Shown here piece by piece: positions 44,931 to 63,746 of a DNA stretch of 64,000 nucleotides. The DNA is from Unio delphinus (taxonomy: Eukaryota > Mollusca > Bivalvia > Unionida > Unionidae). Numbering within the stretch: position 1 is the first letter of the stretch; the number at the start of each line of letters is the position of its first letter. Position numbers and translations under genes: made by a program. The notes under the pieces were generated by a model, which worked only from the letters and a program-made list of their open reading frames with translations, was not told the DNA's origin and ran no database searches. The stretch covers positions 2,263,501 to 2,327,500 of the forward strand of contig JAQISU010000193.1 in assembly GCA_029339505.1 (NCBI GenBank), in the 5' to 3' direction.

Positions 44931-44968
44931 TATCTTTTCGAGACCTATGAGTGGCCCTGAAAAGGACC
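44931..44968 (-). terminator. Histone-type mRNA 3' stem-loop with downstream element
   Basis: On the reverse strand GGTCCT-TTTC-AGGGCC (44968-44953) forms a 6-bp stem (one U-G pair) and a 4-base loop, matching the metazoan histone consensus GGYYYU-loop-ARRRCC. About a dozen bases later comes TCTCGAAAAGATA (44943-44931), like the purine-rich U7 snRNA target. It lies 27 bases after the stop codon of the 44996-45229 gene. Confidence 0.75.
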
Positions 44969-44995
44969 GTTATGTGTAATGTTAACGTTGTCTTG

Positions 44996-45229
44996 TTAAC
45001 ACAGAGGACATCTCACAGATCTTCTTCTCTTCCTTAAACTTCTCCTTACTGTGGGTCCATAGAAGAGAACTCTCTTCAAGCAACCTTGTCTTTCCACATA
45101 GACTCTTCTCTTCCAATAGGCTGTCTCCGTCCTATGAATGACACTCCATGATGATCTGACATACATGGGTATGTCAGTCCTAAACAGCATGCTAGACACA
45201 AGGGTTGACGATTCAACGTTAGTCCACAT
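44996..45229 (-). CDS. Small arginine-rich protein, element C left end
   Basis: A 77-residue protein from ATG 45229, about 42 bases after a TATA box (CTATAAATAA, 45280-45271). The N-terminal half is mixed; the C-terminal 20 residues are very basic (RRSLRKRRRS) and end CPLC, so nucleic-acid or chromatin binding is possible. No known family is recognised. It is the outermost gene at the left end, shares a bidirectional promoter with the forward gene at 45448, and is followed by a histone-type 3' stem-loop, a strong sign that it is a real transcribed gene. Confidence 0.65.
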   Translation of the reverse strand: MWTNVESSTLVSSMLFRTDIPMYVRSSWSVIHRTETAYWKRRVYVERQGCLKRVLFYGPTVRRSLRKRRRSVRCPLC

Positions 45230-45270
45230 CTTGTGATGAGAACAGGTGAAGCGAATGCCGTGAACTGCGG

Positions 45271-45400
45271 TTATTTATAGGGGAAGAGCGGATTGAAACG
45301 GATTGAGTGTATCGACCAATCCAAACACGCGTTACAAAAGTCAGGCACAGCCATCCAATCGGAAGAGAGCGGTCTGTGACGTCACCTTTTCTATATAGAG
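45271..45400. promoter_or_regulatory. Bidirectional promoter with paired TATA, CCAAT and CRE motifs
   Basis: A reverse TATA (CTATAAATAA, 45280-45271) and a forward TATA (CTATATAGAG, 45391-45400) face outward. Between them lie two CCAAT boxes (45316-45320 and 45355-45359) and a perfect TGACGTCA (45377-45384), the CREB/ATF site. Both start codons sit 42-48 bases after their TATA. CCAAT plus TATA is also the usual arrangement of histone gene promoters. Confidence 0.75.
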
Positions 45401-45447
45401 GTACTAGCGTCTGTGCGCAATCAATCGATGAGACAGAGTTGTCAATC

Positions 45448-46101
45448 ATGGCGGACAGTAAGAAGACGATGAATTGGAGTGAGTCAGGAGTAGAGACAGC
45501 AAGTCATGGGCCAACAGTGACTACTAAAGTCATGACAAATCTACATCCAGAAGAAGTGGATTTTAACTGGGATATTGTGGATTTTTTAACATCGCAAGAA
45601 TTTATTCCGGAACCTTCGTTGCCTTCTGTATCTTCTTATGGACACGTCGATGATTTTAAGCAGAGACAAAAAGAAGAATTGGAGCGATTTTTACAACAAC
45701 AGAAAGTAGAAGAACAAGCTTTTCTTATGCAACAGCAGGAAGAAGAAGCAAGAAGGAAACACCAGGAAGAAACAGTAGCAGCAGCAGCAGCAGCAACAGC
45801 AACAGAGAAGAATGAAGACCAAGGACAGAAAGAAAATAGTGAAAATCAAACGGTCACGACGGTACTTTTAGATATTTTAGCTGAGTTAAGGAGTCTGAAA
45901 CAAATGTATCAGACTTCTTTATCACGACCGAAGAGAAAAAGACCTTCTCGAGCGAAACAACCCGATCTCTCTGTGACTACGTCTACCTTACCACCGTTAG
46001 TGATTTCTACCAAATCATTGACAGGAACCACCAGTCCCGAAGTAGGCCTTGGCCGTGGCAAAGGCTTAAGACAGCTCAAGAGGATTTCGTCCCGTTTCTG
46101 A
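45448..46101 (+). CDS. Q/E-rich coiled-coil protein with nuclear signal, element C
   Basis: A 217-residue protein. The ATG at 45448 (MADSKKTMNW) is chosen because it is the first after the TATA box at 45391. There is an acidic hydrophobic stretch (VDFNWDIVDFL), a long Gln/Glu coiled coil at residues about 70-120 with a poly-Ala run, a leucine-rich helix (LLDILAELRSLKQMYQ), then a basic SRPKRKRPSR that looks like a nuclear localisation signal. An acidic-plus-coiled-coil nuclear protein could be a transcription regulator, but this is inference. It ends 33 bases before a histone-type stem-loop. Confidence 0.7.
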   Translation: MADSKKTMNWSESGVETASHGPTVTTKVMTNLHPEEVDFNWDIVDFLTSQEFIPEPSLPSVSSYGHVDDFKQRQKEELERFLQQQKVEEQAFLMQQQEEEARRKHQEETVAAAAAATATEKNEDQGQKENSENQTVTTVLLDILAELRSLKQMYQTSLSRPKRKRPSRAKQPDLSVTTSTLPPLVISTKSLTGTTSPEVGLGRGKGLRQLKRISSRF

Positions 46102-46134
46102 GTTTGTTTTGTTTTAAACAATCAAAACACCAAC

Positions 46135-46173
46135 GGTCCTTTTCAGGGCCACTCCAATTATTTCGAAAAGAAA
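46135..46173 (+). terminator. Histone-type mRNA 3' stem-loop with downstream element
   Basis: GGTCCT-TTTC-AGGGCC (46135-46150) and, 12 bases later, TCGAAAAGAAA (46163-46173). Identical stem and loop to the reverse-strand site at 44953. The following ATACTATGTCAATTGCC recurs after the site at 63710. Confidence 0.78.
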
Positions 46174-46414
46174 TACTATGTCAATTGCCTATTTCAATGA
46201 AAACTCAAAAGTCCTTTTATATATTTTTTAAAATCCATGATGTACGTGTGAGTGAAGGAATGTGTGAGTGTAGGTTCTTATTCTATCAAATCAAAACCAA
46301 GAGACACTTACGTTTTTTCTCTCTGGTGTATTCTAGTACAAACGTTACAATTTAATATCACAACATAACATAACACAATACCATGTTTAAAAAGTTCATA
46401 AGTTTTCTTCTGTT

Positions 46415-46885
46415 TCACTCTTTCTGTTTTTTCATTTTCTTTACTGTCACAGCTTTTTCTTTTTCTTCGTCACTTTCGTTTCGTCTTCTTTTCTTGTTTT
46501 TGTGAACGTGACGGGGTTCTTCCTTGGAGGAGGGTACCTCTTTCTCCTCCTGTTCAGAATTTCTTTCCTCCTCCTCCTCCTCTTCCTCCTCCTCCTCCTC
46601 CTCCTCCTGCTCCTGTTGTTTCTTAGGACAGTTTGGAGACCAATGTCCTTTCTCTTTACAATAATAACAGGTATCTTGACTTTTGTCTCTATTGGTACCT
46701 TTTTTATTTTTGTCACGATCTGAACATTCTGTAGCCCAATGTCCTTTCTTCTTACAGATATAGCAAGTATCTTGACTTTTATCTCGATAGGAGGAAGAGT
46801 AGGCCGTCGGCTGGTCTGACGAAAACTTTCGTATGACCCCACGTAAAGCTCTAATGAGAAGTTCCACTTCTGTAGGTTCTTTCAT
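46415..46885 (-). CDS. CCHC zinc-knuckle protein with poly-Glu tract, element C
   Basis: A 156-residue protein from ATG 46885 (MKEPTEVELL). Two CX2CX4HX4C knuckles, CYICKKKGHWATEC and CYYCKEKGHWSPNC, each follow a SQD-T motif; such knuckles bind single-stranded nucleic acid, as in retroviral nucleocapsid and cellular CNBP. An uninterrupted run of about 20 Glu and a basic C-terminus (KKRRRNESDEEKEKA) follow. The two knuckles are a tandem duplication. It is divergent from the polymerase gene and uses TATA GCATATATAAA (46948-46938). An ATTAAA near 46351 could be its poly(A) signal; no histone stem-loop follows. Confidence 0.75.
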   Translation of the reverse strand: MKEPTEVELLIRALRGVIRKFSSDQPTAYSSSYRDKSQDTCYICKKKGHWATECSDRDKNKKGTNRDKSQDTCYYCKEKGHWSPNCPKKQQEQEEEEEEEEEEEEEERNSEQEEKEVPSSKEEPRHVHKNKKRRRNESDEEKEKAVTVKKMKKQKE

Positions 46886-46937
46886 CGTTCTGGTCAATGT
46901 GAGAGTGAAATGAATACTGAACCGTTAGACACTAACC

Positions 46938-46972
46938 CTTTATATATGCACGGATCGGACATGAATATATAG
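46938..46972. promoter_or_regulatory. Divergent TATA pair for the zinc-knuckle and polymerase genes
   Basis: A reverse TATATATAAAG-type box (46948-46938) lies about 53 bases before ATG 46885, and a forward TATATAG (46966-46972) lies about 47 bases before ATG 47019. Spacing equals that seen for other element C genes. Confidence 0.65.
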
Positions 46973-47018
46973 GGGTTATGGTCTTTAAAAGGTAGTCATT
47001 TGACTTTTTGCAGACAAG

Positions 47019-50000
47019 ATGAAAAGACCACATCATGTTGTGGAGAAAGGAAAAGATAGTAAGAGACAGAAACGTAATGTATCGCCTAGCACAGTAGCTG
47101 AAGTCTTGGCTCAAATTCATGCCAGTGATTTTGAAGATGACATGAGTGAGCCCGAATCTACGCCTAAGCAATCGACGTCCAAGCAAAGTGCACCACCCTT
47201 AGTAAACCCTGAAAATTACTATCACATTCGAGAGACGGAAAAGCGTTCCTCTCGAAAATTTAGAACAACGGCTTACACGTATGCCGTAAAGTTTAAAGAT
47301 TTCAAGGCCAATGTACCTTTGGAGAATACAGAAGGGTTCATTACCGAGGTGTGGGATTCTGTGTTAACTGCATTGAAACAGCAATGTCAAGCCAAAGAAG
47401 ACGATCGCTTGAGACTTTCTATTCATCACGATAATTTAAAGTCTCCCGTTTGGATCGAGTTTACTAGCCCATCAGAATTAACACCTTCCAAAGTCATTGA
47501 CAAAATTCAACATGTGCAACAATCCAACGACAAGTTTCACATCACCGATGGAAAAGCCACACTGTTCATGACCCACGTGTCTCTTCCTGAGGGGACCGGA
47601 CGCAAAAAAGTGTTATTGGTGGACAGCCTTCGTAACATGAAGCGAAGCCTCGTCCGAATTAACAATCCTCAAGACCAGATGTGTTTAGCCCGTGCCATCG
47701 TCGTGGGACAAATGTATGTCAACAAGAACGAGACGATAGAATGGAAAAGAGCCTGGGAAACTATTCGACAATCGGACCGAGCCAAACAAGGAAGTGAAGC
47801 AGAACTCCTGTTACAGCAAGCGGGGATATCCAAAGATACCCCTTGCGGTATTCCAGAAATGCAAAAGTTGCAAGACGTCTTGGCTCCACGTTACACTTTG
47901 AAAGTACACCCTCAAGAAGTGCGTGGTCCTCTTTTGTTTCGAGGCCACGATTTCAAAGACGGAAAATACATTCACGTCTATCATCACGATGGTCATTTTG
48001 ATACCATTACCAGTATCACTGGATTTCTGAAATTCAGTTACTACTGTGAAAAATGTGACTATGGTTATAACAATCGAGAACAACACAAGCATTGTGGATC
48101 GAAATGTGAGGGATGTTTGGCCTCTCAACCTTGTCTGGACAAAGGACAAGTACGAGTGCATTGCCCTGTGTGTCAGCGCACTTTTGTCAGTCTTACCTGT
48201 TACCAACAACATTTGAAGATGCAAGGTTCACAGCAGAAAAGTACTTGTCAGCTTCTGAGATTGTGTCCTACTTGTGGACAAGGCATACGTACCAATAGTG
48301 TTAAGTTACACGTTTGTCGAGGGAAGAAACGATGTCACATTTGTCGCCAAATTGTGGACTTGGAGCACGAATGCTTCATTCAAAAATATCAACCCCGACC
48401 AGAAGATACCCAGAAGAAAGGGAATTTTATCTTTTTTGATTTCGAATGCATGCAAGAAACTGGTATTCACATTCCTAATTTCTGCGTGGCTCACCGTGCG
48501 TGCGAGCAGTGCATCCAAGAACCTATCTTTAGTCATTGCCCTTACTGCAGCAAGATTCCTGGAGGACGTGAAAAAATCTTTCGAGGGTCAAATACGCTAG
48601 CCGATTTTGCCCAATGGATCCTAAACCCCATCGACGAAACGTGGAGTCCAGAAGACATCGAACGTTACGGCGAGTGTCATTGCCATGCCACAGTCATGGC
48701 CCACAATTTCTCGGGATACGATGGGCAATTTCTGCTTAGATACTATGCGGAACAAAGTACCGAACGGCCTCAAGTGACTTTGAACGGAGCCAAAATCATT
48801 TCTATGCAAGTAGGACAAGTACAGTTTAAAGATTCGATGTGTTACTTGGCCATGCCTTTGAGTCGCATGCCTAAAACGTTTGGAATGACAGAAATGGCCA
48901 AAGGTTATTTTCCACACTTTTTTAATACCGAAGCTAATCAACATGCCATTCTACCCCATTTGCCTGAGGTTGACGACTACGACCCCGACAACATGCGCAA
49001 CGAACAACGAGAAGCTTTCCATGCTTGGTACCAGACTCACGCCTCGGGCCCCTTTGACTTTCAAGAAGAAATGTTAAAGTATTGTCGATCTGACGTGGAC
49101 ATTTTACGACGCTGTTGTGGAAAATTTCGAGAATTGTTCATGGAATACGGAGGGATCGATCCTTTGAAAGAAGCTTGTACCATTGCCAAAGCATGTTCCT
49201 TAGTGTACCGAAAACGCTTTATGCCCGAAAATACTCTAGCGGTCATCAGTCCTCAAACGACGAATTTTGTCAAACGTCAATACTCGGTTAAAGCCCTACG
49301 CTGGCTCCATTACTTGTGCGACAAGGAAGACAAATGGATCCAACACGCTCGCAACGGAGGAGGCGAAAAGACCATCGGAACGTATTCGGTAGATGGTTGG
49401 AACTTAGAAAACCCTAAGATCGTGTACGAGTTTAACGGATGTTTATTTCACGGATGTCCTCTATGCTACCCTCAGCGTAACACCAAAAATCAGTTTTTAC
49501 AACGAACCATGGAAGATTTGTACCAGACCACGTGTCAGCGACGTTTGAAGTTAGAACAACAAGGATACCAGGTAGTGGAAATGTGGGAACACGAGTACGA
49601 TCTGCGTTTGAAAACCGATCCCGAGTTTAAACGCATCGTAGAAAGTTACAAGTGGGTGGATCCATTGAACCCCCGGGATAGTTTGTACGGAGGACGAACG
49701 AATGCTACTTGTTTGCTGTACCAAGCGGATGAAGAGAAAGGAAAAGAAATCAAATACTTGGACGTGTGTTCGCTGTATCCTTACGTGTGCAAATATTGTC
49801 ACTTTCCCGTAGGGCATCCAGAATTGATGACAGAACACATTGACTTGGACCACATTCGTCAGTACGAAGGATTGATCAAGTGTAAAGTCTTACCTCCCAC
49901 AGACTTGTACCATCCCGTTTTACCTCACCATTGCCAAGGAAAACTGATGTTTCCTTTGTGTCGCACATGTGCCGAAACGTGCAACCAAGACCAACCTTGT

Positions 50001-51089: not shown

Positions 51090-51123
51090 TTCATTGTGAC
51101 TAACACAGCCAAGCGAAAAGAAG

Positions 51124-51789
51124 ATGAATCCATTTAAACAGACATCATTCAAGTTTGGGGATTGTAAAACAAATGTACCTTTCCAGAGTGTGAAAAGTAC
51201 TGGATGGATAAGACCTATGCATTGCAACGGAAGTTGTCCGGAAGGAAACTGTAAGTGTCATTGCGGTATGCACTGTAATTGCGTTACAAAGTGCGATGGT
51301 GAACCTTACGATTGTAGTGATGCCAGACGCTGTGACGTTAGCGATTCAGCTGGATATCGTGGGAACGTTGCTATGACTACTACCCCTATATCTACCGTGG
51401 AAAGTGATGCTGTGCGTGTCAACCCTGAGGGATGCGAAAGCGGTGCCACACGTTATCGTGGACTCCTAGGAATTTCACCGTACCTGCATCGAACAGAAGT
51501 GAGGAGAGTCGAATATTCGTTCCCGACGAGTTTGCCTGAATACTGTCACTTTAAAAGTCGATTTCAAACCTTCAAAGATAAATGGCCAAAATATCTGCCT
51601 GGACCAACTCCTGAAGAATTAGCCAGAGCTGGATTTTTCTACTTGGGCGAAGGAGATAAAGTCAAGTGTTTCAGTTGTGGTGTATCCATTTACGAGTGGG
51701 AACAGAAAGATTCCGCTTACTTGGAACATGCTCGATGGTCTCCGAATTGTCAATACCTACCTTTAGTAGGACCTAGTGATTGGAAGTGA
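51124..51789 (+). CDS. BIR-domain protein (IAP-like)
   Basis: A 221-residue protein. The N-terminal part (residues about 25-75) is unusually Cys-rich (NGSCPEGNCKCHCGMHCNC). The C-terminal 75 residues form a baculoviral IAP repeat: FKSRFQTFKDKWP, LARAGFFYLGEGDKVKCFSC, then HARWSPNC, giving the CX2C...HX6C zinc ligands and the GF(F/Y)Y motif. BIR proteins block caspases or serve mitosis. No RING domain is present, so ubiquitin ligase activity is not expected. Several animal DNA viruses carry single-BIR proteins to delay cell death; a host origin by capture is likely. Placed between polymerase and small accessory genes, with its own TATA. Confidence 0.85.
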   Translation: MNPFKQTSFKFGDCKTNVPFQSVKSTGWIRPMHCNGSCPEGNCKCHCGMHCNCVTKCDGEPYDCSDARRCDVSDSAGYRGNVAMTTTPISTVESDAVRVNPEGCESGATRYRGLLGISPYLHRTEVRRVEYSFPTSLPEYCHFKSRFQTFKDKWPKYLPGPTPEELARAGFFYLGEGDKVKCFSCGVSIYEWEQKDSAYLEHARWSPNCQYLPLVGPSDWK

Positions 51790-51801
51790 CACTACTACTC
51801 C

Positions 51802-52188
51802 ATGTCGTGTAACACGTCTAGACCAGTATATAAGCCCTCTCTAAAACATAATATTCAAGGATTACCATACGAATTGCAAGAGAAGATCTACAAGGACGTT
51901 TGGCAAGGTCTTGCTAAAGAAAAATCTCAATGCGTGACTGTAGAACATTTGTGTCGTGAAATTCACAAGAGGCAAGTGACAAAAATTAACCAACGTATTA
52001 GATTTCTCTGGATTAAGGGTATTTTTTTGCTCTGTTACCAATTTACTACGTTTACATCTGAAGATGTTGTGATCCTTCTTGACCGTTACCCTGAATGGCA
52101 GTGGGACGAAATTACACGTTATATTAATCACTTTTGCTTTTTGTGCAAATTTAATTCTGTGTTTAATTCTGGGTTGAATCTACACTGA
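51802..52188 (+). CDS. Small protein with F-box-like motif
   Basis: A 128-residue protein; the only Met is the first, so the start is fixed at 51802. Residues 18-32 (NIQGLPYELQEKIYKDVW) resemble the LPxELxxxI helix that opens F-box domains, which link targets to Skp1-Cullin ubiquitin ligases. The rest has no clear repeat, and an aromatic, hydrophobic segment (FLWIKGIFLLCYQF) might be buried helix. The assignment rests on one short motif and may be wrong. A TATATAAG at 51826 lies inside the frame and is not obviously this gene's promoter. Confidence 0.55.
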   Translation: MSCNTSRPVYKPSLKHNIQGLPYELQEKIYKDVWQGLAKEKSQCVTVEHLCREIHKRQVTKINQRIRFLWIKGIFLLCYQFTTFTSEDVVILLDRYPEWQWDEITRYINHFCFLCKFNSVFNSGLNLH

Positions 52189-52228
52189 TAGTCTTCGACC
52201 TAAAAAAGAAGTATAAAAGAGAACGACC

Positions 52229-52447: not shown

Positions 52448-52453
52448 GACGGT

Positions 52454-53140: not shown

Positions 53141-53872
53141 ATGGCTCACTCTACTCTTTCTACTACTCCTTCCTCCTCCACATTCAAAGTCATTGACGAA
53201 CACTTAGATCAGGCTAGTTGGAAAGCCTTGTATCTTCGTCATCCTTTTAACATGTTAATTGCTGGACCGAGCGGTTCAGGCAAAACCGAATTTGTCAAAC
53301 GTTTGATCGAACATAAACATCATTTGATCGATCGTCCACCTCAACGCATCGTGTGGTGTTACAAAGAGTGGCAATCGGCATACAGCCTCTTGCAAGAAAG
53401 TCAAGGTGATTCCATTGTGTTTGTAGCAGGCATTCCTAAAGAAGACGAAGGGATCGTGTCTGACCCTAGTCAAACTCATTGGGTTATTTTTGACGACATG
53501 TTAGGAGAAGACGAAGAAGAAATTAAACTATGGTTTACGCGTAAAGGGCATCATCGTAATGCCAGTGTCATTTACATTACACAAAATTTATTTCAACAAA
53601 GTAAAGCCCATCGTACCATTAGTCTTAATGCTCATTACGTGGTCTTGTTTAAAAGTCCTCGAGATAAATCACAAGTGCAAGTTTTAGCCAAACAGTTAGG
53701 AACACCTTGGCTAACTCATGCGTACGATGATGCCACTCAAATGCCACACGCCTATTTACTCGTGGATTTAAAACCCACTACTCCTGATTATTTGCGATTT
53801 CGTACCGATTTGTTTCACGACTGGTGTCAAGATGGAGGACCTGTCGTGTACACGTCCTCCTCGTCGACATAA
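53141..53872 (+). CDS. FtsK/HerA-type genome packaging ATPase (A32-like)
   Basis: A 243-residue motor that drives viral DNA into preformed capsids. The start MAHSTLSTT lies 51 bases after a TATA box; upstream in-frame codons are non-ATG. Walker A is AGPSGSGKTEF (about residues 41-51), Walker B is WVIFDDML (D118, D119), followed by the family signature WFTRKGHHRNASVIYITQNLF, in which the Gln is the sensor residue. Length is typical for Polinton and poxvirus A32 ATPases. It lies between the accessory cluster and the core-protein genes. Note that the homologue in element A has a very similar domain plan but lies on the opposite strand of its element. Confidence 0.93.
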   Translation: MAHSTLSTTPSSSTFKVIDEHLDQASWKALYLRHPFNMLIAGPSGSGKTEFVKRLIEHKHHLIDRPPQRIVWCYKEWQSAYSLLQESQGDSIVFVAGIPKEDEGIVSDPSQTHWVIFDDMLGEDEEEIKLWFTRKGHHRNASVIYITQNLFQQSKAHRTISLNAHYVVLFKSPRDKSQVQVLAKQLGTPWLTHAYDDATQMPHAYLLVDLKPTTPDYLRFRTDLFHDWCQDGGPVVYTSSSST

Positions 53873-53941: not shown

Positions 53942-54841
53942 ATGACGTCCCTTCAGTCTCATCTTCCCATCAAATTGATTCGTGCCTTGTACGGCATCAG
54001 TCGCGAAAAAAATCCACAAAGACGTGCTCACGTCTTAGAAGCCAGTCTCAAAGAAGTCTTACGATGGTTTACGGTGACAGCACGTCAAATACTGCAAGGC
54101 ATCATTCACATTCCACATCAAACCAAACGCTTTTTTGACAGAAACAAAGTAGCCTTGACGCAACTGGCCAATCCTCGCATCGACACTCACACCAAAAAGC
54201 AAATCATATTGAAACCTGGAGGTAGTGGTTCTCTAGGAGGTGTCATCATTCGTTCCCTTTTAAAATGGGATCCCAATACTCCCAAAGTTCACCCCAAGAA
54301 GAAAACAAAAAAAGCCAAACAAACCCCTAAGAAAAAGAACAAGGGTGCCAAGACCAAAACACAGAAAAAGAAAAGTCCACAGACAAAAGCGGTCACCCGC
54401 AAGAAAGGCACTTCGGCCAGGACACAACCTTACCTTCGTCAACCACGACCTGTAAGAAAAGATCTACAAGGACGTTTGGCAGGGACTACGTTGCCAGTAG
54501 CCTCAGGGGCTGTCACTTCTCCGTTGCGGGTGATGCCAGCCAAACCCAATTTGACACCCGTTTTTCCTAATTTGATGAAACATTGGAAATCTGCGTCTCC
54601 CAAAACGTCTCCTCCACCGGTGACACCCTCGTCCACATTAGCGGCAGTAGCAGCTGCTCACAAAGTACCTGCCCCGAAAGTGAAAGTCCAAGAAAGATCT
54701 GGCATGTTAAAGAGTTTACTAGATTTGTCCAAACAAGAACTGTCCCGATTGAGTCCGTTGCGAACCCCTTCACGACGTGTGTTACCTGCCATGAAGTTGA
54801 TACGACGCAAAGATAATCAGTGGCGACGCATTCCAGTATAA
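53942..54841 (+). CDS. Large basic virion core-like protein
   Basis: A 299-residue protein from ATG 53942 (MTSLQSHLPIKL). The N-terminal 110 residues are helical and include VTARQILQGIIH. A Gly-rich turn (GGSGSLGGVIIRSLLKW) follows, then a very Lys-rich part (KKKTKKAKQTPKKKNKG) and a Pro/Ala-rich tail. This layout resembles DNA-condensing core proteins of adenovirus-like viruses, so packing DNA in the particle is likely, but sequence identity to a named family cannot be judged by eye. It follows the ATPase closely. Confidence 0.65.
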   Translation: MTSLQSHLPIKLIRALYGISREKNPQRRAHVLEASLKEVLRWFTVTARQILQGIIHIPHQTKRFFDRNKVALTQLANPRIDTHTKKQIILKPGGSGSLGGVIIRSLLKWDPNTPKVHPKKKTKKAKQTPKKKNKGAKTKTQKKKSPQTKAVTRKKGTSARTQPYLRQPRPVRKDLQGRLAGTTLPVASGAVTSPLRVMPAKPNLTPVFPNLMKHWKSASPKTSPPPVTPSSTLAAVAAAHKVPAPKVKVQERSGMLKSLLDLSKQELSRLSPLRTPSRRVLPAMKLIRRKDNQWRRIPV

Positions 54842-55132: not shown

Positions 55133-55146
55133 TTCCCCAAAAAGTA

Positions 55147-55154
55147 GATAAAAG
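55147..55154 (+). promoter_or_regulatory. GATAAAAG box before the first pX-like gene
   Basis: GATAAAAG, 55 bases before ATG 55209. The stretch from here to the ATG is closely repeated at 55435-55496. Confidence 0.6.
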
Positions 55155-55208
55155 AGAGTGTGTACCAAGTCATTGACACTAGTAATATTGTGAAACGAAC
55201 AAGCAAAG

Positions 55209-55439
55209 ATGTCACCTCGCAGAAAACATTCTTCTTCACCCCACAAAGGAAAGAAAAGGAAAGGACGTTTAGCCAAACATCGACACGTTCATCGTCCAAA
55301 GGCCCAAAAGAAAATATCCGTCCGTCAAAAGAAAAAGATGCTGGTGCAACGCGGAGGATTTTTCCTACCCCATGATCTCTTTCCAGAAAAAGTGATACCA
55401 CTTATAAATCAAGTGATGGCACAACAAAAAAAAAGATAA
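55209..55439 (+). CDS. pX-like core protein, short paralogue
   Basis: A 76-residue basic protein: MSPRRKHSSSPHKGKKRKG, then AKHRHVHRP, then VRQKKKMLVQRGGF. The last block is the conserved end of a Polinton/adintovirus core protein compared with adenovirus pX (mu). Compared with the next gene it shares start and end but lacks about 70 middle residues, as if made by duplication and an internal deletion. The C-terminus is less hydrophobic. It may compete with or tune the full protein in the particle. Confidence 0.75.
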   Translation: MSPRRKHSSSPHKGKKRKGRLAKHRHVHRPKAQKKISVRQKKKMLVQRGGFFLPHDLFPEKVIPLINQVMAQQKKR

Positions 55440-55442
55440 AAG
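55435..55442 (+). promoter_or_regulatory. GATAAAAG box before the second pX-like gene
   Basis: GATAAAAG overlapping the stop of the previous gene, 55 bases before ATG 55497, the same spacing as its duplicate. Confidence 0.6.
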
Positions 55443-55496
55443 AGGGTGTGTTTCAAGTCATGGACGTCAGTGGTATTGTGGAACGAACAAGCAAAG

Positions 55497-55949
55497 ATGT
55501 CACCTCGCAGAAAATATTTTTCTACACCTCACAAAGGAAAGAAAAAGAAAGGACTACCTCCTCGTTTGGTCAAACACGGAGACGTGTTGTCTGTCCTGTC
55601 CAAAGCCTCTCCACCCATGCGAAAACAAATCATTAAAACGGCTTCCAAAGATGTCATCGATACCGTGTGCGAATGTTGTTTGAATGTCTTGAAAGGCACG
55701 ATACCTTTGTCTTCACACCAGAAAAAATGCTTAGCCAAACATCGACACGTTCTTCGTCAAATGGTCCAAAAGAAAATACCCGTCCGTCAAAAGAAAAAAA
55801 TGTTGGTGCAACGCGGAGGATTTTTACCTTTTCTTCTTCCTGTGTTGGGAGGATTAGCGAAATCCGGTATCCTATCCAGCATATTACCAGGTTTTTTACA
55901 AGGGATGTCCCCAGGGATGCACCAAGGGATGGCCCCAAGGTATGGGTAG
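55497..55949 (+). CDS. pX-like core protein, full length
   Basis: A 150-residue protein. The start MSPRRKYFSTPHKGKKKKG matches its paralogue. The central part is helical with a conserved Cys pair (SKASPPMRKQIIKTASKD, then VCECCLNVLKGTIPLS), a pattern found in adintovirus pX-type proteins. The block VRQKKKMLVQRGGF and a hydrophobic Gly/Met-rich tail (LPVLGGLAKSGILSSILPGF) follow. The tail could insert in membranes or be removed by the protease; a GG pair after LVQR is a plausible adenain-type cleavage context. Core or capsid-lining role is inferred. Confidence 0.82.
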   Translation: MSPRRKYFSTPHKGKKKKGLPPRLVKHGDVLSVLSKASPPMRKQIIKTASKDVIDTVCECCLNVLKGTIPLSSHQKKCLAKHRHVLRQMVQKKIPVRQKKKMLVQRGGFLPFLLPVLGGLAKSGILSSILPGFLQGMSPGMHQGMAPRYG

Positions 55950-56721: not shown

Positions 56722-56729
56722 CCTAAACC

Positions 56730-57842
56730 ATGGAGAAGGTCTTAGCCAGCATTTATTACGATCCAGCTCACCCTGCAGGTTACGGAGGCATTCAGAAATT
56801 GTATCGTGCTGCCAAAACTCGCTTGAAAAAGCTCCGTTTACCTACAGTACAACGATGGTTACAAGAACAAGCGACGTACACTTTACACAAACCCATTCGA
56901 CGAAAATTTCACAGAAGTCGCACTCAAGTGGAAGGCATCGATCATCAATGGCAAGCCGATTTAGCCGATGTCTCTCATTTAGCCACTTACAATCGTGGCT
57001 ACAAATATTTGTTTTGTGTCATCGACGTCTTTTCTAAATTTGCCTGGGTCGTACCATTGACATCCAAATCGAGCGGAGAGTTAGTACGAGCTTTGCAACT
57101 GGTGTTGAAACAAAGTGGTCGTCACCCTCTTCGATGGCAAACCGACAAAGGCACCGAATTTCTAAACCAAGCTTTCCAACGAGAATTAAAAAAACGTGAC
57201 ATTCATTTTTTCACCACTGAAAATCCTGAAACCAAAGCCAGTATCGTGGAACGTTTTCAACGTACCTTGAAAGAACGCATGTGGAAATATTTTACGCATC
57301 AACACACTCTCAAGTACATCGACGTCTTACCACACTTAGTCCAAGCCTACAATCAATCTTACCATAGAAGCATTGGACGTGCCCCACAAGAGGTGACACC
57401 TGACAACGAAGTAACTGTTTTTGAGCGTCTGTTTGGTACGTCCCGAACGAGGGCTGTCCCCAAGAAAGGTGGAGAAGTGTTAACCCCGGGAGATTGGGTA
57501 CGCATTGGCAAAACCAAACGCACTTTCGACAAAGGTTACTTACCCAACTGGACCACCGAATTGTTTCGTGTTACTGAACGAGTGCGTGACCGTCATCCTA
57601 CTGTCTATAAATTGGAAGACATGAACGGAGAAGTATTAAAAGGAACGTTTTACTTGCCTGAGTTACAACGTGTCACCAAAAAAGAAGACGACGTGTACGA
57701 CATTGAAAGCATTCTCGAACGAAGAACACGTAAAGTAGGAAAACGACGTGTCAAAGAAGTCAAAGTACGTTGGAAAGGATATCCTCCTAGTTTTGATTCT
57801 TGGATTGACGCTGCCCAAGTCATCGACTATAAAAAGAAGTGA
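56730..57842 (+). CDS. Retroviral-type integrase with C-terminal chromodomain
   Basis: A 370-residue enzyme that joins the element ends to host DNA. The N-terminal helical region (about 1-65) is followed by the DDE core: HQWQADLAD (D77), QTDKGTEF (D139) and SIVERFQRTL (E174). An SH3-like basic region (GDWVRIGKTKRTFDKGYLP) follows, and at residues about 322-367 a chromodomain (VYDIESILERR, VRWKGYPPSFDSW), which binds methylated histone tails and can steer insertion to heterochromatin. Intact. It begins 8 bases after the preceding stop with no TATA, so it may share a transcript. The integrase of elements A and B has no chromodomain. Confidence 0.95.
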   Translation: MEKVLASIYYDPAHPAGYGGIQKLYRAAKTRLKKLRLPTVQRWLQEQATYTLHKPIRRKFHRSRTQVEGIDHQWQADLADVSHLATYNRGYKYLFCVIDVFSKFAWVVPLTSKSSGELVRALQLVLKQSGRHPLRWQTDKGTEFLNQAFQRELKKRDIHFFTTENPETKASIVERFQRTLKERMWKYFTHQHTLKYIDVLPHLVQAYNQSYHRSIGRAPQEVTPDNEVTVFERLFGTSRTRAVPKKGGEVLTPGDWVRIGKTKRTFDKGYLPNWTTELFRVTERVRDRHPTVYKLEDMNGEVLKGTFYLPELQRVTKKEDDVYDIESILERRTRKVGKRRVKEVKVRWKGYPPSFDSWIDAAQVIDYKKK

Positions 57843-57847
57843 CCATC

Positions 57848-58267
57848 ATGCCCTTCAATGCAGCTTCAGCATCCACAGTGACTACTCCTTCACCCACGTC
57901 ATCTCTGCAAGATTTACAAAAGCAACCCTTGTGGGTGTGGTGTGGAGAACGTGTCCCTAAAACCCAAATCGTCTTTTTCTGTCAAATCTTTGTGGTGTAT
58001 TGTGTGATCGGTGCAGCCATTGCTAATTTGAGTTTGCAACAAGGAGACAAACAGTTGTGGACTATTTTACTCAGCAGTTGCATCGGGTATCTTCTTCCTA
58101 ATCCTTCCCTGAAATACTCTTACAACAGGAACAACAGTAACAATATTGGGAGTCTTGCGTCCAACGTTAGTCCTTCTCCTGACAGTCACCCTTCCAATCA
58201 CAATCCTCTTTTAGACACTCCTTTAACCTTGAGTGACTCCTCGGACAGAACAACATTGGAATTATGA
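57848..58267 (+). CDS. Conserved small two-helix membrane protein
   Basis: A 139-residue protein from ATG 57848 (MPFNAASAST). A WVWCGERVPKTQIVFF motif leads into the first membrane helix (QIFVVYCVIGAAIANL), a short polar loop, then a second helix (LWTILLSSCIGYLLP). The C-terminal 50 residues are polar and Asn/Ser-rich. The 'VPKTQ-TM-LWTxLLSSxxGYLLP' plan is shared by a small protein found next to integrase and penton in many adintoviruses. The function is not known. A TATAAAAAG box lies at 57828. It overlaps the penton start by ATGA. Confidence 0.75.
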   Translation: MPFNAASASTVTTPSPTSSLQDLQKQPLWVWCGERVPKTQIVFFCQIFVVYCVIGAAIANLSLQQGDKQLWTILLSSCIGYLLPNPSLKYSYNRNNSNNIGSLASNVSPSPDSHPSNHNPLLDTPLTLSDSSDRTTLEL

Positions 58268-59190
58268 ACCACACTATGAACCAATTTTACTTAACGTTAC
58301 CTAGTGACAGTTCCATGGAGGTGTTTCCTAAGAATACGTTGTGTTGTTACACGGCTAAATTACCTCAAGCCATGCATTTGGATCAAGATGCTCATTGGGA
58401 AGTGGCTTTAGTGGAAATGATACACCCGACACAAATCAAAAACATCATCGAAAATCAAAACACTTTTTCAGTAGACGTGTTTGACGAGCAATTGCAAGAT
58501 GAGTTAAACAAACGAGGCATCACTGTCGGAAAGAAATCAGATGACCCCAAAATTAAATCCACTCATGTGATCAGCATTCCTCCAGGCTACTATTTTAGTA
58601 GTCAACATTTAGTGACTACACTTGCTGCCAGGTTTAATGCTGTGTTTGGTAAAGCCATGGATAAACTACCCATCAGTAAAAGTGTTACCTTTGAGTACTA
58701 TCCAGTATCTCGTCGTCTCATGATCAAATTTCCAGAGAATGAAATGATAGGCATTAAGTTTTGTCCTGAATTGTTTGATATTTTGGGTGGAGACGTCGAG
58801 ATGCTCAAGAACAAAAAGCAAATACCAACCATAACCACTAACGTGGAATTTTCAAGATATTTTCGATCCCCTGTAGAAATGAACCAAGGACTCAACTTGA
58901 TGTTTGTGTACTCCGATGTGGTGGAGTACAACGTGGTAGGACACACCTCTGTACCGTTACTACGTGTCATTCCTTTCAAAGTGGATTCTACCGTCGCTGC
59001 TAAAGAGGATGGTGGAAATACCTATCACGTTCACCGCGAATTTGTACATCCTCATTATTTGCCTGTCAGTAAGTCGTATTTCGACAGTGTCAACATTACT
59101 ATAAAAGGAGAACTAGGACAAAATATTCCATTTACCAAAGGGAAAGTCACAGTGAAACTCCATTTTCAAAAACGATTCTCCAACAACTGA
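58264..59190 (+). CDS. Penton protein (minor capsid, jelly-roll)
   Basis: A 308-residue protein that forms the fivefold vertices. The start NQFYLTLPSDSSMEVFPKN and the following LPQAMHLDQDAHWEVALVEM are typical for adintovirus/Polinton pentons. IPPGYYFSSQHLVTTLAARF and the C-terminal YFDSVNITIKGELG with VTVKLHFQKRF complete the jelly-roll pattern. The length is usual. ATG 58264 overlaps the previous stop; the Met at 58276 is an alternative. Intact and placed just before the pVI-like and major capsid genes, as in relatives. Confidence 0.88.
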   Translation: MNHTMNQFYLTLPSDSSMEVFPKNTLCCYTAKLPQAMHLDQDAHWEVALVEMIHPTQIKNIIENQNTFSVDVFDEQLQDELNKRGITVGKKSDDPKIKSTHVISIPPGYYFSSQHLVTTLAARFNAVFGKAMDKLPISKSVTFEYYPVSRRLMIKFPENEMIGIKFCPELFDILGGDVEMLKNKKQIPTITTNVEFSRYFRSPVEMNQGLNLMFVYSDVVEYNVVGHTSVPLLRVIPFKVDSTVAAKEDGGNTYHVHREFVHPHYLPVSKSYFDSVNITIKGELGQNIPFTKGKVTVKLHFQKRFSNN

Positions 59191-59197
59191 AAAAGTG

Positions 59198-59638: not shown

Positions 59639-59665
59639 AAGTGAAGAAAAAAACATAAAGAAAAA

Positions 59666-60997
59666 ATGATGCACCAAGAATCTTGTGCCTGTTCCAAGTC
59701 GGAACTAGATCTCTTTGCCATGCCACCCACCATGACGACCATGCAAGAAGCCCAATGGGTTGAATTTCATCCCGTCTCCTCTTTGACGGATTCAGCTCCC
59801 ATCGAGTTTGAAATCAAAGGACAACCCGAAGATTACATCGATCTCAACAACAGTTACTTGTATTTGAAACTGAAAGTCACCAAAACGGACGGCTCCGCTC
59901 TAGCAGCCGATACCAAATCAGCTCCCGTCAACAATTTCATGCATTCCTTGTTCAGCGAAGTGGATTTGTACATGAATAACAAACTGGTCAGCAGTAGCAT
60001 GGATACTTACCCTTACCGAGCGTACCTCGAAAATCTCTTGACGTACGGAAAAGAAGCCAAGAACACTCATTTAGATGCTTGCGTGGTATGGAAACCTGAC
60101 ACCGCAGATAAGTTTAACATCACAATCACAGAAGCAAAAGACGGCAATGTGGGTTTTGTCGAGCGTCGACAGAAAATTCTTGGACGTAGTTTAGAACTGT
60201 GCGATCGTTTGCATTTGGACATGTGGTTTCAAGAGAAGTATTTGCTGAACGGAGTGGATATTCGCTTGAGACTAAATCGTAGCAGTGCTGCTTTCCATTT
60301 CATAGCTGATGAACCTCCTGAAGCTGAACAGAAGACTACCCACCACTGTAAAACCAAGATCGAAGAAGCCAGATTATACGTGCGTCGTGTGGAAGTGTTA
60401 CCTAAAGTGGGAAATGATATCAGTCACACTTTGAGCAGAACGACAGCCAAGTATCCGATACGACGCGTGGAAGTCAAAACGTTCACCATTGCCACTGGAC
60501 TCCAATCTAAGATCGAAGATCATCTGTTCCAAGGACAGTTACCCAAACGTTTATTCATTGGTATCGTCAGCAATGCAGCCTTCAACGGTGCCTACACTCA
60601 AAATCCTTTCGAGTTTAAGCACTACAATGTATCCAAAATCGAAGTCAGTCGCGATGGCAAAACTTTGTGTACCAGACCCTTCGAACCCAAGTTTGCTGCG
60701 AAGAATTACTTGAGGTCGTACTTGTCACTGTACGAAGCCACAGGACAGTTAGGAACCAATACCAGTCACGGTATTTCCTACGAAGATTATGCAGGAGGTT
60801 ACGCGTTGTGGGCTTTTGATTTCACTCCAGACCAAGGCAGCGACGAGGGACATTTCCACCCTATAAAATCGGGGCAGATACGTGTGGAACTTCAGTTTGC
60901 AGGACATCTTACCGAAACGGTGAATGTCATTCTGTATGCTGAATTCGATAATACCATAGAAATCAACAGTTTGAGAGAAGTCATTCTAGACTATTAG
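59666..60997 (+). CDS. Major capsid protein (hexon, double jelly-roll)
   Basis: A 443-residue protein that builds the capsid shell. Typical landmarks are KSELDLFAMPPTMTT near the start, WVEFHPVSSLTDSAPIEFEI, EDYIDLNNSYLYLKLKV, NNFMHSLFSEVDLYMNNKLV and TYPYRAYLENLLTYGKEAK. The second half has the second jelly-roll (FTIATGLQSKIEDHLFQGQL, PFEFKHYNVSKIEVSRDG, then GQIRVELQFAGHL). This is the protein family often listed in animal genomes as 'F54H12.2-like'. Complete and of usual size. ATG 59666 is followed at once by a second ATG. Confidence 0.94.
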   Translation: MMHQESCACSKSELDLFAMPPTMTTMQEAQWVEFHPVSSLTDSAPIEFEIKGQPEDYIDLNNSYLYLKLKVTKTDGSALAADTKSAPVNNFMHSLFSEVDLYMNNKLVSSSMDTYPYRAYLENLLTYGKEAKNTHLDACVVWKPDTADKFNITITEAKDGNVGFVERRQKILGRSLELCDRLHLDMWFQEKYLLNGVDIRLRLNRSSAAFHFIADEPPEAEQKTTHHCKTKIEEARLYVRRVEVLPKVGNDISHTLSRTTAKYPIRRVEVKTFTIATGLQSKIEDHLFQGQLPKRLFIGIVSNAAFNGAYTQNPFEFKHYNVSKIEVSRDGKTLCTRPFEPKFAAKNYLRSYLSLYEATGQLGTNTSHGISYEDYAGGYALWAFDFTPDQGSDEGHFHPIKSGQIRVELQFAGHLTETVNVILYAEFDNTIEINSLREVILDY

Positions 60998-61002
60998 ACA
61001 TT

Positions 61003-61500: not shown

Positions 61501-61536
61501 AAAAAAGGGAAAAAAAACAAGGCTACACAACAAAAA

Positions 61537-62094
61537 ATGGATACTTGGGAACTTTATTATCTTTTGAACCGTAGTTCGTACACTGCTTCTTGGAATCCTG
61601 TGGTGTGTGCTAAAGATGAACTACCTCATCGCAAACCTCAAGAGAATCAAGCTTATGTCATCAACACAGATGACAGTCATCTTCCAGGAACTCACTGGGT
61701 AGCAGTCTACTTTCCTCAAGAGGGTTGTGCGGAGTATTTTGATTCGTATGGATTGCCTCCTTTCGAAGATGATATCATTGACTTTATGAGAAGAAATGCC
61801 CAGACGACACGATTCAATAATGTGAAATTACAAAGCACAGATTCTATGGTGTGTGGACAATATTGTGTCTATTATCTGCATCATCGCAGTCTTGGATATT
61901 CTTTAGAACATTTAGTGACTTATTTTGATCGTCATTCGTCTCGAAACGATGACAAAGTAGATCGATGGTTTTGTGACCATTATGGCTATCTGTTGTCTTT
62001 AGCTAGGAAGCGTAGTGTACATCAATCGCCCAATGACTTCCAACAGTGGAAATCTCAATTTAATTCACAGCGTTGTCAACCATGTCAAAGATAA
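61537..62094 (+). CDS. Adenain-like cysteine protease (maturation protease)
   Basis: A 185-residue enzyme of the adenovirus protease/Ulp1 (C5/C48) class that trims capsid and core proteins in new particles. The triad is visible: His53 in GTHWVAVYF, Asp69 in EYFDSYG, Cys106 in MVCGQYC, with Gln99 for the oxyanion hole (LQSTDS). Size and residue order match adenain (His54, Glu/Asp71, Gln115, Cys122 in adenovirus). It is the last gene of the conserved core block; an AT-rich repeat with a poly(A) signal follows. Confidence 0.94.
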   Translation: MDTWELYYLLNRSSYTASWNPVVCAKDELPHRKPQENQAYVINTDDSHLPGTHWVAVYFPQEGCAEYFDSYGLPPFEDDIIDFMRRNAQTTRFNNVKLQSTDSMVCGQYCVYYLHHRSLGYSLEHLVTYFDRHSSRNDDKVDRWFCDHYGYLLSLARKRSVHQSPNDFQQWKSQFNSQRCQPCQR

Positions 62095-62106
62095 TGTATT
62101 CGTGTT

Positions 62107-62222
62107 ATGGAAGAAAAAAAATGTTTGTTATTTGAAAAAATATTTGTTATTTGAAAATAATGTTTGTTAGTTGAAAAAATTGTGTTTGTTATTTGAAATA
62201 ATGTTTGTTATTTGAATAAAAA
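62107..62222. repeat. 21-bp tandem repeats and poly(A) signal after the protease gene
   Basis: About six imperfect copies of TGTTTGTTATTTGAAAAAAT, ending in AATAAA at 62215-62220. It probably ends the late transcripts and separates them from the right-end cassettes. Confidence 0.8.
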
Positions 62223-62349
62223 TGTTGTGTTTTCAAAACCAATGCGTCTGTCGTTTGTTTTACATTTGTATTCATATAAATGCTCTTTGACTTTTCTTTC
62301 TATCCCTCACATCAAACTATCCCAACGTTTCAAAACCCTAAACCGCAGA

Positions 62350-62390
62350 GGGGTGTTTTCCATCACGTCCGCGCTTGAACCATATAAAAC
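62350..62390 (+). promoter_or_regulatory. Upstream element plus TATA, right cassette 1
   Basis: GGGGTGTTTTCCATCACGTC then CGCG (62350-62373), followed by ATATAAAAC (62382-62390), 53 bases before ATG 62443. The same element recurs at 63050 and 63119. Confidence 0.75.
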
Positions 62391-62442
62391 AGGGGTAGTC
62401 TCCAGTCTGGCCATCCATTGTTTGACTCATCCTCCTACGAAG

Positions 62443-62805
62443 ATGTGCTCAAGACTAGCTAAGCTGAACGAAGCTTACGTCACTCTGCATCGTATCAGAC
62501 ACAATCTGATGCCAAAGCCTGAAGAGATTGAGAATGTGAGAATGCTACAAGAAACGGAAGACCTTATAGAAGAACTCTTCAGAGAGGAAATTCAAAAAGA
62601 GAAAGAAGAATGGACTGAGAAGTATCGACTTCAAAAGCAGCAGAGAGAGCAGAGAGAACAGCAGCAGCAGCAACAGCAACAACAGCAGCAGGAACCAGAC
62701 AGAAGTTTTGTTGACTGTCGTGTGGACACGAAAGAGTTCTCTTTCTCTTTCCGAAGAAGCAGACCCTATCGTGTAGCCAAACGAGGACGCAATCTTAGAC
62801 GATAA
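62443..62805 (+). CDS. Coiled-coil poly-Gln accessory protein, right cassette 1
   Basis: A 120-residue protein from ATG 62443 (MCSRLAKLNEAYVTLHR), the first ATG after the TATA. A charged coiled coil (residues about 25-75: EEIENVRMLQETEDLIEEL, then EIQKEKEEW) runs into a pure Gln tract, and the C-terminus is basic (SRPYRVAKRGRNLRR). It is similar in start, coiled coil and flanking control DNA to the 63206-63682 gene, hence a tandem paralogue. It is followed after 34 bases by a histone-type stem-loop. The function is unknown; a nuclear regulator is possible. Confidence 0.7.
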   Translation: MCSRLAKLNEAYVTLHRIRHNLMPKPEEIENVRMLQETEDLIEELFREEIQKEKEEWTEKYRLQKQQREQREQQQQQQQQQQQEPDRSFVDCRVDTKEFSFSFRRSRPYRVAKRGRNLRR

Positions 62806-62839
62806 AAGATTGCCATCCTTCCTCGTACAAACAAAAAAC

Positions 62840-62876
62840 AGCCCTTTTCAGGGCTACCCAATATTCTCGAAAAGAA
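62840..62876 (+). terminator. Histone-type mRNA 3' stem-loop with downstream element
   Basis: AGCCCT-TTTC-AGGGCT (62840-62855), a perfect 6-bp stem with UUUC loop; the outer pair is A-U instead of the usual G-C. ACCCA follows, as in many histone mRNAs, and CTCGAAAAGA comes 11 bases later (62867-62876). Confidence 0.75.
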
Positions 62877-63038
62877 TTAATCATTCAATTTGCTTATGGT
62901 ATGTGAGGAAGTTAGAAAAAAAATTAGAAGTGAGTCTATAATCACTGTCTCTTTTTACTTTTGTTTTGAAGTGCGTCTATAAGCACAACGTATTTTTTTC
63001 AAAATAACTTGTTCAATTTATAATTAATAGGAGTCAAG

Positions 63039-63073
63039 TATAAAAGTGAGGGGTGTTTTCCATCACGTCCGCG
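63039..63073 (+). promoter_or_regulatory. Orphan TATA and upstream element
   Basis: TATAAAAG at 63039-63046, then the GGGGTGTTTTCCATCACGTC element at 63050-63073 without a gene of its own. It looks like the leftover of a third, deleted cassette. Confidence 0.55.
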
Positions 63074-63118
63074 TGTTTTTTGGTAATGATAGGGATACTG
63101 TAAGATTTTTGGATCTAG

Positions 63119-63160
63119 GGGGTGTTTTCCATCACGTACGCGCTTGAACTATATATAAAG
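63119..63160 (+). promoter_or_regulatory. Upstream element plus TATA, right cassette 2
   Basis: GGGGTGTTTTCCATCACGTA then CGCG (63119-63142), and ATATATAAAG (63151-63160), 46 bases before ATG 63206. Confidence 0.75.
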
Positions 63161-63205
63161 AATCACTCTTCAGTCTGGCTACCCATCGTTGGCGCATCAA
63201 AGAAG

Positions 63206-63682
63206 ATGAGCAGAGTTCAAAAGTTAAGAGAGCTTCAAATGCATCTGGAGAATGCTAGACGTCTCCTGGACGAGCTGGCAATGGAGGCCGAAGAAGAAGA
63301 GACCAGAATTAAAGAAGAGGAGGAGAGGAAAAAGAAAGAAGAGGAGAAGGAAATGAAAAGGTCAATTTTGCCTCACCCCATGATGAGGCAAACTAGTCAA
63401 GTTAAACCTATGGTGAGGACACCTTCACCAGAACCAGTTCGTCCACTACAGGCACAGCCCCCACCGCAACAACCACAGTCTCAGCCGCAACAACCACAAT
63501 CTCATCCACGGTTGCGGAATAGAGGAAGAAATGAAGAGACTTTCACTATCCCACAAAGTGAAGACTGGGATAGTGAAGCCACTCATTCTCCCTCTGCGCT
63601 CCCAATCACAAGAGTGAATTGGGAGAATGATTGGAGTAGGAGATGTGTGTGGGGGGCTAGACCTGGGAGATGCCAGCATTAA
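63206..63682 (+). CDS. Coiled-coil accessory protein, right cassette 2
   Basis: A 158-residue protein from ATG 63206 (MSRVQKLRELQMHLENAR). A strongly charged coiled coil (residues about 5-60, rich in Glu, Lys and Arg) is followed by a Pro/Gln-rich linker (QAQPPPQQPQSQPQQPQS) and a Trp-containing tail (NWENDWSRR). It is paralogous with cassette 1 by position of the start, coiled coil and control sequences, though the tails differ. A histone-type stem-loop follows 27 bases after the stop. Function unknown. Confidence 0.7.
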   Translation: MSRVQKLRELQMHLENARRLLDELAMEAEEEETRIKEEEERKKKEEEKEMKRSILPHPMMRQTSQVKPMVRTPSPEPVRPLQAQPPPQQPQSQPQQPQSHPRLRNRGRNEETFTIPQSEDWDSEATHSPSALPITRVNWENDWSRRCVWGARPGRCQH

Positions 63683-63709
63683 CCAGGTGCATTTTGAAGT
63701 TTAAAAAAC

Positions 63710-63746
63710 AGCCCTTCTCAGGGCTACCCAAATGTCTAGAAAAGAA
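63710..63746 (+). terminator. Histone-type mRNA 3' stem-loop with downstream element
   Basis: AGCCCT-TCTC-AGGGCT (63710-63725), then ACCCA and, 11 bases on, CTAGAAAAGAAA (63735-63746). The loop is UCUC instead of UUUC. The sequence after AAAAGAAA continues ATACTATGTCAATTGCC, identical to the end at 46170. Confidence 0.75.

Follow-up and report, generated by a model that had tools for sequence, protein, structure and literature searches.

Why should genes that are not histone genes end like histone genes? This question is raised by a 64,000-nucleotide (nt) stretch of the genome (2.505 Gb) of the bivalve Unio delphinus (assembly GCA_029339505.1, contig JAQISU010000193.1, positions 2,263,501 to 2,327,500, forward strand), hereafter the window. 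From position 44931 on it carries a virus-like element, and a first-pass annotation made from the letters alone had proposed that short accessory genes near the ends of this element carry the 3′ ends of replication-dependent histone mRNAs. Our analysis supported histone-type 3′ ends on non-histone genes of the element, because the sites match the Rfam family RF00032 (Histone3), the same architecture occurs in the histone array of the host, the signal is retained with pairing-preserving changes in diverged copies, and the genome encodes an SLBP domain. The element is very probably an adintovirus/Polinton-like provirus at high copy number whose terminal genes end in working copies of the host replication-dependent histone 3′ signal. 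These findings suggest that the element borrows the host machinery for histone messages.

Four histone-type stem-loops follow terminal genes

One stem-loop was confirmed behind each of the four terminal genes, here termed L1, L2, R1 and R2 (Table 1). The claimed stem of 6 bp was correct: pairing is 6/6 at all four sites, with an outer G-C pair in two and an A-U pair in two. The third pair is U-G in both left sites (44953 and 46135). The stems begin 27 nt (L1), 33 nt (L2), 34 nt (R1) and 27 nt (R2) past the stop codon, in agreement with the annotated range of 27-34 nt. The annotated purine element was present at all four sites as well, but in a slightly different place: GAAAAGA begins 13 nt past the stem (14 nt at 46135), near the 11-12 nt claimed for CGAAAAGA. 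At 63739, GAAAAGA is preceded by A, not C. The region between stop codon and stem could hardly be aligned among the four genes; L2 and R2 have extended 3′ sequence in common.

The covariance model of RF00032 matched all four sites end to end (positions 1-46 of 46, purines included). The R1 site was the sole Rfam match in the whole window at gathering scores, and the three other sites scored below the gathering score of 34 (E values in Table 1 are from a 19.4-kb scan). The stem rule predicts 0.085 sites per 64 kb (200 Markov shuffles) vs. 4 found, and the fuller pattern RRYYYTTYTCARRRYYACY predicts 0.01 (100 shuffles) vs. 4 found. Positions 20-45 nt past the stop of an ATG open reading frame (ORF) of at least 70 amino acids (aa) make up 3.1% of the forward and 1.5% of the reverse strand of the region, and hold all four sites. 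Folded in isolation, the sites at 46135 and 62840 adopted the stated structure (z -4.06 and -3.16). The signal was confined to terminal accessory genes, as the annotation had it: 4 of the 20 delimited window genes have it within 130 nt of the stop, and the other 16 show at least 4 mismatches.

Each of the four genes also has a TATA-like box, recognized by motif only, 50-60 nt ahead of its ATG. A promoter block of 40 nt is common to R1 and R2 (93% identical). Neither AATAAA nor ATTAAA occurs within 150 nt past the stops of L1, L2, R1 and R2; this is weak evidence, because the same is true of 13 of the 16 other genes.

The same architecture occurs in host histone genes

A histone array at the start of contig C15 comprises H2A (two copies), H1, H3, H4 and H2B in 9.9 kb; the genes were named from their sequences. 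Its six stem-loops begin 29-38 nt past the stop, with GAAAAGA or GAAAAAG 13-14 nt behind the stem. When six loci were scored with RF00032, element copies reached 23.5-43.6 bits and host genes 29.2 (H4) to 41.5 bits (H2A). Because the host H4 gene scores 29.2 bits, two of the three sub-threshold window sites score a little higher than a true histone gene of the host, and the 25.1-bit site scores lower. L1-type stem-loops are letter for letter those of host H2B, and the L2-type stem-loop in copy L044 is that of host H1. The AGCCCT-AGGGCT stem type was present in none of the six host stem-loops examined.

The RNA-binding domain of SLBP (PF15247) is encoded in the genome by two matches (59.5 and 38.5 bits) separated by 1.5 kb, which cover positions 1-32 and 29-70 of 70. 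The domain was found in 0 of 14 control genomes, and such controls say little. One control genome gave a match below cut-off in the genome search with RF00032.

The signal is retained in diverged copies of the element

The RF00032 search of the genome gave 74 matches, 69 of them over cut-off, among 75 scored of 434,796 candidates; the window's own sites were outside the scored set. Six matches belong to the C15 array, and 6 kb were examined around the best 40 of the 68 others. Homologues of L1 (57-76% identical) precede the chosen stem-loop in 5 of these 40 loci. In 24 of the 40 it is preceded by a match to R3, a candidate gene recognized as a short right-end ORF (31-38 residues where printed) with a stem-loop behind it; the R3 query, of 30 residues, was composed by eye. 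R3 lay downstream of R2 in all 8 loci where R2 was also found, so R3 of the window copy would lie past position 64000. The first-pass annotation had placed the end of the element near 63746; this must be revised, since other copies have a further stem-loop past R2, which would fall beyond the window end. Between 44400-46500 and 62000-64000, inverted matches better than E 0.01 were confined to the stem-loop sites, and the right end of the element lies beyond the window.

For each gene, a copy was counted if its match ended no more than 8 residues short of the C-terminus and was followed by 90 nt or more, and the signal was defined as a stem-loop with at most 2 mismatches in 130 nt. Each of the 40 loci had been selected through a stem-loop other than the one counted here; in them, the signal followed 4/4 copies of R1 and 11/11 copies of R2. 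Behind control genes of the same loci it was found in 0/4 (protease), 0/2 (capsid) and 0/1 (polymerase) copies; the zinc-knuckle, BIR, ATPase, integrase and penton genes gave no countable copy. Among 3000 random 130-mers drawn from these loci without removal of true sites, 57 contained it. Behind the right-end genes the signal was kept in diverged copies in the genome. Two outcomes that the annotation had named as refutations, lack of any covariance-model match and absence from every related element, did not occur.

Sites were collected from the window and the 40 loci if a stem-loop (at most 2 mismatches) had purines 6-26 nt past its stem. By this selection, 61 sites were obtained from 40 of the 41 sources. 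Fifteen different stem-loops occur among them; 53 sites are fully paired, and stem and purines are 13 nt apart in 59 sites and 14 nt apart in the other 2. Changes on both sides that preserve pairing were seen in many sites at pair 1 (GC/AU) and in a single site each at pair 3 (CG/UA; UG also occurs there) and pair 6 (UA/AU).

L2 itself gave at least 150 matches in the genome, its own copy included, all 98-100% identical (150 of 5611 candidates scored), and 142 of the 150 are without an internal stop. Judged from these sequences, the L2 family has spread very recently or is under homogenisation.

Relatives outside the genome

A metagenomic relative of L2 (P0136; 59-65% identical) reads past the usual stop into the signal. 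Its last 24 residues, back-translated, matched the window L2 3′ untranslated region with 67.8 bits (best of ~1000 random window 90-mers, 32.4) and the R2 site with 47.8 bits. The letters indicate a stem of the form GG..CC with a C-rich tail and GARAAR purines, third-codon bases not being fixed by the protein. By our own reading, the stem would lie ~28 nt past the former stop.

More distant relatives (L001-L004; capsid 26-46% identical) had no clear homologue of L2, R1 or R2, and L001-L003 appear partial or decayed. Their contigs are filed as bacterial metagenome-assembled genomes (MAGs), in which relatives of the capsid gene are probably contamination from the host animal. L002, from a Bathymodiolus symbiont assembly, has a weak twister-P1 ribozyme-like match at 11734-11798 (28.9 bits, gathering 67.2; E 0.034) shortly past the capsid gene of this decayed relative.

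In IMG/VR, no relatives were found for the capsid, the capsid alignment, the integrase, the ATPase, or the L2 and R2 alignments. The stem-loop pattern gave 21 IMG/VR loci, of which 20 were scanned with Rfam at gathering scores; Histone3 was found in 0, and the letters look like chance matches in coding sequence. A stricter pattern gave none. INPHARED phages had no capsid match, and sequence searches of PHROGs and PDB were uninformative.

Alternative explanations

Several observations weigh against the reading of these sites as working histone-type 3′ ends. Folded alone, the R2 site (63710) was no stabler than shuffles (z -0.91; 39/200 at least as good) and the L1 site (44953) favoured another fold; covariation among the window's four sites was not beyond shuffles (84/500). 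Because they are the best 40 of 68 non-array matches, the 40 loci are enriched for good stem-loops, and the 5/5 count of the signal behind L1 is circular, because those loci were chosen by that stem-loop. By tblastn (E 1e-4), 21 of the 40 loci matched a protein of the window element, 13 only the R3 query, and 6 nothing (L043, L049, L053, L057, L060, L074; at E 1e-3, R2 was matched in L053). Diverged copies of L2 had the signal within 130 nt in 1 of 5 cases: in L046 and L050, where an extra ORF follows the gene, an L2-type stem-loop lies ~1.6 kb downstream, past that ORF, while L041 and L047 yielded none. The P0136 tail matched R1 (31.8 bits) and L1 (21.8 bits) no better than the best random piece, and none of L001-L004 gave a Histone3 match at E ≤1. 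The weaker SLBP match contains one stop codon, and just 3 of the 20 window genes have AATAAA/ATTAAA within 150 nt of the stop.

Chance hairpins could be suspected, since three of the four window sites score under the Rfam gathering score; however, 0.01-0.085 sites were expected vs. 4, the sites are placed past stops, and the copies show gene-specific retention and a conserved form. Shuffles and copies together refute this explanation, to which we give practically no weight. The histone gene 3′ end may instead have been picked up once and have persisted by copying and recombination without function. The letter identity of L1-type stem-loops with host H2B and of the L044 stem-loop with host H1, the extended 3′ sequence common to L2 and R2, and the many very young L2 copies are consistent with such a relic. 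Four genes nevertheless keep the stem, the AC tail, the 13-14-nt gap and the purines while the stretch from stop to stem is hardly alignable; pairing is preserved through changes at three pairs (two of these in single sites), the AGCCCT-AGGGCT type has no counterpart in the six host stem-loops, and P0136 retains the element at 59-65% identity. We therefore consider a functionless capture quite improbable.

A hairpin acting otherwise, either as DNA (in replication, insulation or end function) or as an RNA stabilising or packaging hairpin, would make the likeness to histone genes secondary. The location of the sites near both ends, with the outermost ones in the window facing outward, would fit such a role; yet the purines, the fixed spacing and the distance from the stop match host histone genes and are unneeded by these models, and the L2 and R1 sites are internal to the element. 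Such a role is in our view highly improbable. Somewhat more room, on the unlikely side, is left for dual 3′ ends, with SLBP/U7 processing while cells divide and polyadenylation after read-through in other settings. Dual ends are reported for some histone genes (PMC3661734), and R1 and R2 stand in tandem on one strand; against them, AATAAA/ATTAAA is absent within 150 nt of all four stops.

A possible route into the histone mRNA pathway

If the terminal genes end in histone-type signals, host RNA polymerase II would transcribe each short terminal gene from its own TATA promoter, and host SLBP would bind the stem-loop. U7 small nuclear ribonucleoprotein (snRNP) would pair with GAAAAGA and cut a few bases past the stem. 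The mRNA would leave without a poly(A) tail and be translated and degraded like a histone mRNA, and the terminal proteins would be made mainly during host DNA replication. What the sequence itself shows is the signal with its placement and spacing, its resemblance to host histone genes, its retention with paired changes and the encoded SLBP domain. Cleavage, poly(A) absence, U7 pairing, coupling to S phase and the roles of the terminal proteins go beyond this and are inferred. GAAAAGA could pair with a UCUUUUC-like sequence. According to PMC7026596, U7 snRNP cuts in the interval that separates the stem-loop from the purine element, 4-5 nt past the stem; the core of mouse U7, CUCUUU, can be matched with AAAGAG, the core of the histone element.

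mRNAs of the histone pathway are made in S phase and degraded once DNA replication stops, and the element may gain from such control. It is plausible, at somewhat less than an even chance, that a virus lineage moved its whole terminal gene set (TATA promoter, stem-loop, U7-type site) into the histone mRNA pathway. Such messages would be poly(A)-less and expressed only where host DNA replicates, e.g. in germline or embryo; proviral expression would then be tied to S phase, which may partly account for the spread to at least 150 near-identical copies.

The sites resemble the metazoan replication-dependent histone 3′ end (RF00032) in their 6-bp stem, 4-nt loop, AC-type tail, purines 13-14 nt further on and closeness to the stop. 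They differ from it in that the genes are non-histone and lie in a virus-like element, and in the outer A-U pair of R1 and R2, which was seen in 0 of the 6 host stem-loops examined. According to PMC12775136, the histone mRNAs of metazoans form a unique class that lacks a poly(A) tail. In the clam Lucina pectinata (PMC6210712), histone genes similarly have a palindromic stem-loop near the stop, and some have purine-rich elements; those genes, however, are true histones, and their purine elements lie at other distances or ahead of the palindrome.

What seems to be new is not the SLBP/U7 pathway but the use that a set of viral non-histone genes would make of it. In the text that our literature search covered, histone-type 3′ ends were described neither for viral genes nor for those of Polintons. 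In the passages of PMC11071296 covered, two uses of "histone" include the gene for the histone-like Histoid protein, and "stem-loop" does not occur; a term search in PMC8097293 gave no occurrence. If true, the finding would reveal a viral route into the SLBP/U7 pathway via several non-histone genes and a means of linking the expression of viral genes with the replication of host DNA; it would also explain why poly(A)-selected RNA-seq would miss such transcripts. The element also provides a natural set of diverged non-histone candidates for recognition by SLBP and U7.

Gene content of the element and neighbouring sequence

The element resembles adintoviruses and Polintons (Mavericks) in its family B DNA polymerase (PolB), rve integrase with chromodomain, A32 ATPase, double jelly-roll capsid protein and protease candidate (Table 1). 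It is unlike those described in the text covered in the histone-type 3′ ends of its terminal genes. Under the definition given in PMC11071296, the element is adintovirus-like: the window proteins include, by Pfam, an rve integrase with a C-terminal chromodomain, and PolB is present (PF03175 matched on pieces of the protein). The N-terminal 394 aa of PolB had no Pfam OTU match at E up to 1. The definition also includes this OTU-like domain, of which Pfam gave no sign, and a hexon that BLASTp recognises among adintoviruses, so we keep to the name "adintovirus/Polinton-like".

Table 1. Features of the virus-like element; coordinates are window positions
Feature	Coordinates	Strand	Remarks
L1 purine element GAAAAGA (histone downstream element (HDE)-like)	44933..44939	-	13 nt past stem
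L1 stem-loop GGTCCT TTTC AGGGCC	44953..44968	-	RF00032 25.1 bits, E 0.003
L1	44996..45229	-	Leftmost gene, 77-aa ORF, very basic (isoelectric point 11.3); homologues 57-76% in L041, L044, L046, L047, L050
TATA-like box TATAAATA of L1	45272..45279	-	Motif only; 50 nt ahead of ATG
TATA-like box TATATAGA of L2	45392..45399	+	Motif only
L2	45448..46101	+	217-aa ORF, basic stretch, conserved C-terminus; 19 homologues, 58-95% identical
L2 stem-loop	46135..46150	+	RF00032 29.8 bits, E 5.4e-05
L2 purine element GAAAAGA (HDE-like)	46165..46171	+	14 nt past stem
Zinc-knuckle (CCHC) protein	46415..46897	-	Between L2 and polymerase; PF00098; without stem-loop; ATTAAA 58 nt past stop
Family B DNA polymerase, 1356 aa	47019..51089	+	PF03175 on pieces; without stem-loop
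BIR-domain protein	51124..51789	+	PF00653, E 1.5e-23
A32-type packaging ATPase	53141..53872	+	PF04665, 29.6 bits, cut-off 22.8; ORF from GTG 53111, ATG 53141
rve integrase with C-terminal chromodomain	56730..57842	+	PF00665, PF00385
Penton-like/minor capsid candidate	58264..59190	+	33-35% to homologues in L001, L003; name inferred from gene order
Double jelly-roll major capsid protein	59666..60997	+	Homologues; AlphaFold model and Foldseek
Adenain-like protease candidate	61537..62094	+	Peptidase_C5 E 0.029, under cut-off; homologues in L001, L003; AATAAA ~120 nt downstream
R1 promoter block with TATAAAA	62350..62389	+	Repeat D11, recurs ahead of R2
R1	62443..62805	+	120-aa protein, glutamine-rich, C-terminus basic
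R1 stem-loop AGCCCT TTTC AGGGCT	62840..62855	+	RF00032 34.9 bits, E 6.4e-07, match 62835-62881
R1 purine element GAAAAGA (HDE-like)	62869..62875	+	13 nt past stem
R2 promoter block with TATATATAA	63119..63158	+	Repeat D11, 93% identical
R2	63206..63682	+	158-aa protein, C-terminus conserved
R2 stem-loop AGCCCT TCTC AGGGCT	63710..63725	+	RF00032 30.1 bits, E 4.2e-05
R2 purine element GAAAAGA (HDE-like)	63739..63745	+	13 nt past stem

L1, L2, R1 and R2 matched no Pfam family at E 0.001 or 0.01 and are not recognisable histones. R1 and R2 jointly had 25 homologues. The start of R1 was set at 62443, because homologues of 112-126 aa begin there; the first ATG would give 187 aa. The extra ORFs in L046 (from 4387) and L050 (from 4381) are coiled-coil-like and resemble an insertion of another element. 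The block GGGGTGTTTTCCATCACGT..CGCG occurs at 62350-62389, 63050-63089 and 63119-63158, the third copy (63050-63089) being without the TATA part.

A search with the capsid protein scored 7995 candidates, of which 1666 were homologues at E 0.001. Among the best 120 of these, the named animals are all bivalves (Mercenaria, Ostrea, Crassostrea, Saccostrea), with one symbiont MAG in addition. The AlphaFold model of the capsid protein (mean predicted local distance difference test score 75) matches the double jelly-roll capsid proteins of an iridovirus, PBCV-1, Sputnik and mavirus. Searched against BFVD, it gave a bracovirus protein first (36% identity), and an Adintovirus sp. protein labelled penton at rank 7 (12%).

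Inside the element, direct repeats of 86-90% identity pair 55139-55266 with 55427-55554, 55259-55363 with 55721-55825, and 51869-51911 with 54445-54487. Elsewhere in the window, four stretches (15359-15763, 27793-28203, 28742-29907 and 34539-35042) are remnants resembling another mobile or virus-like element. They contain helicase pieces (AAA_19; UvrD_C_2 under cut-off), an integrase core under cut-off and unidentified ORFs; the stem-rule scan of the window found no histone-rule stem-loop in them. Positions 1-7060 are taken up by a 45-bp tandem repeat of ~157 copies.

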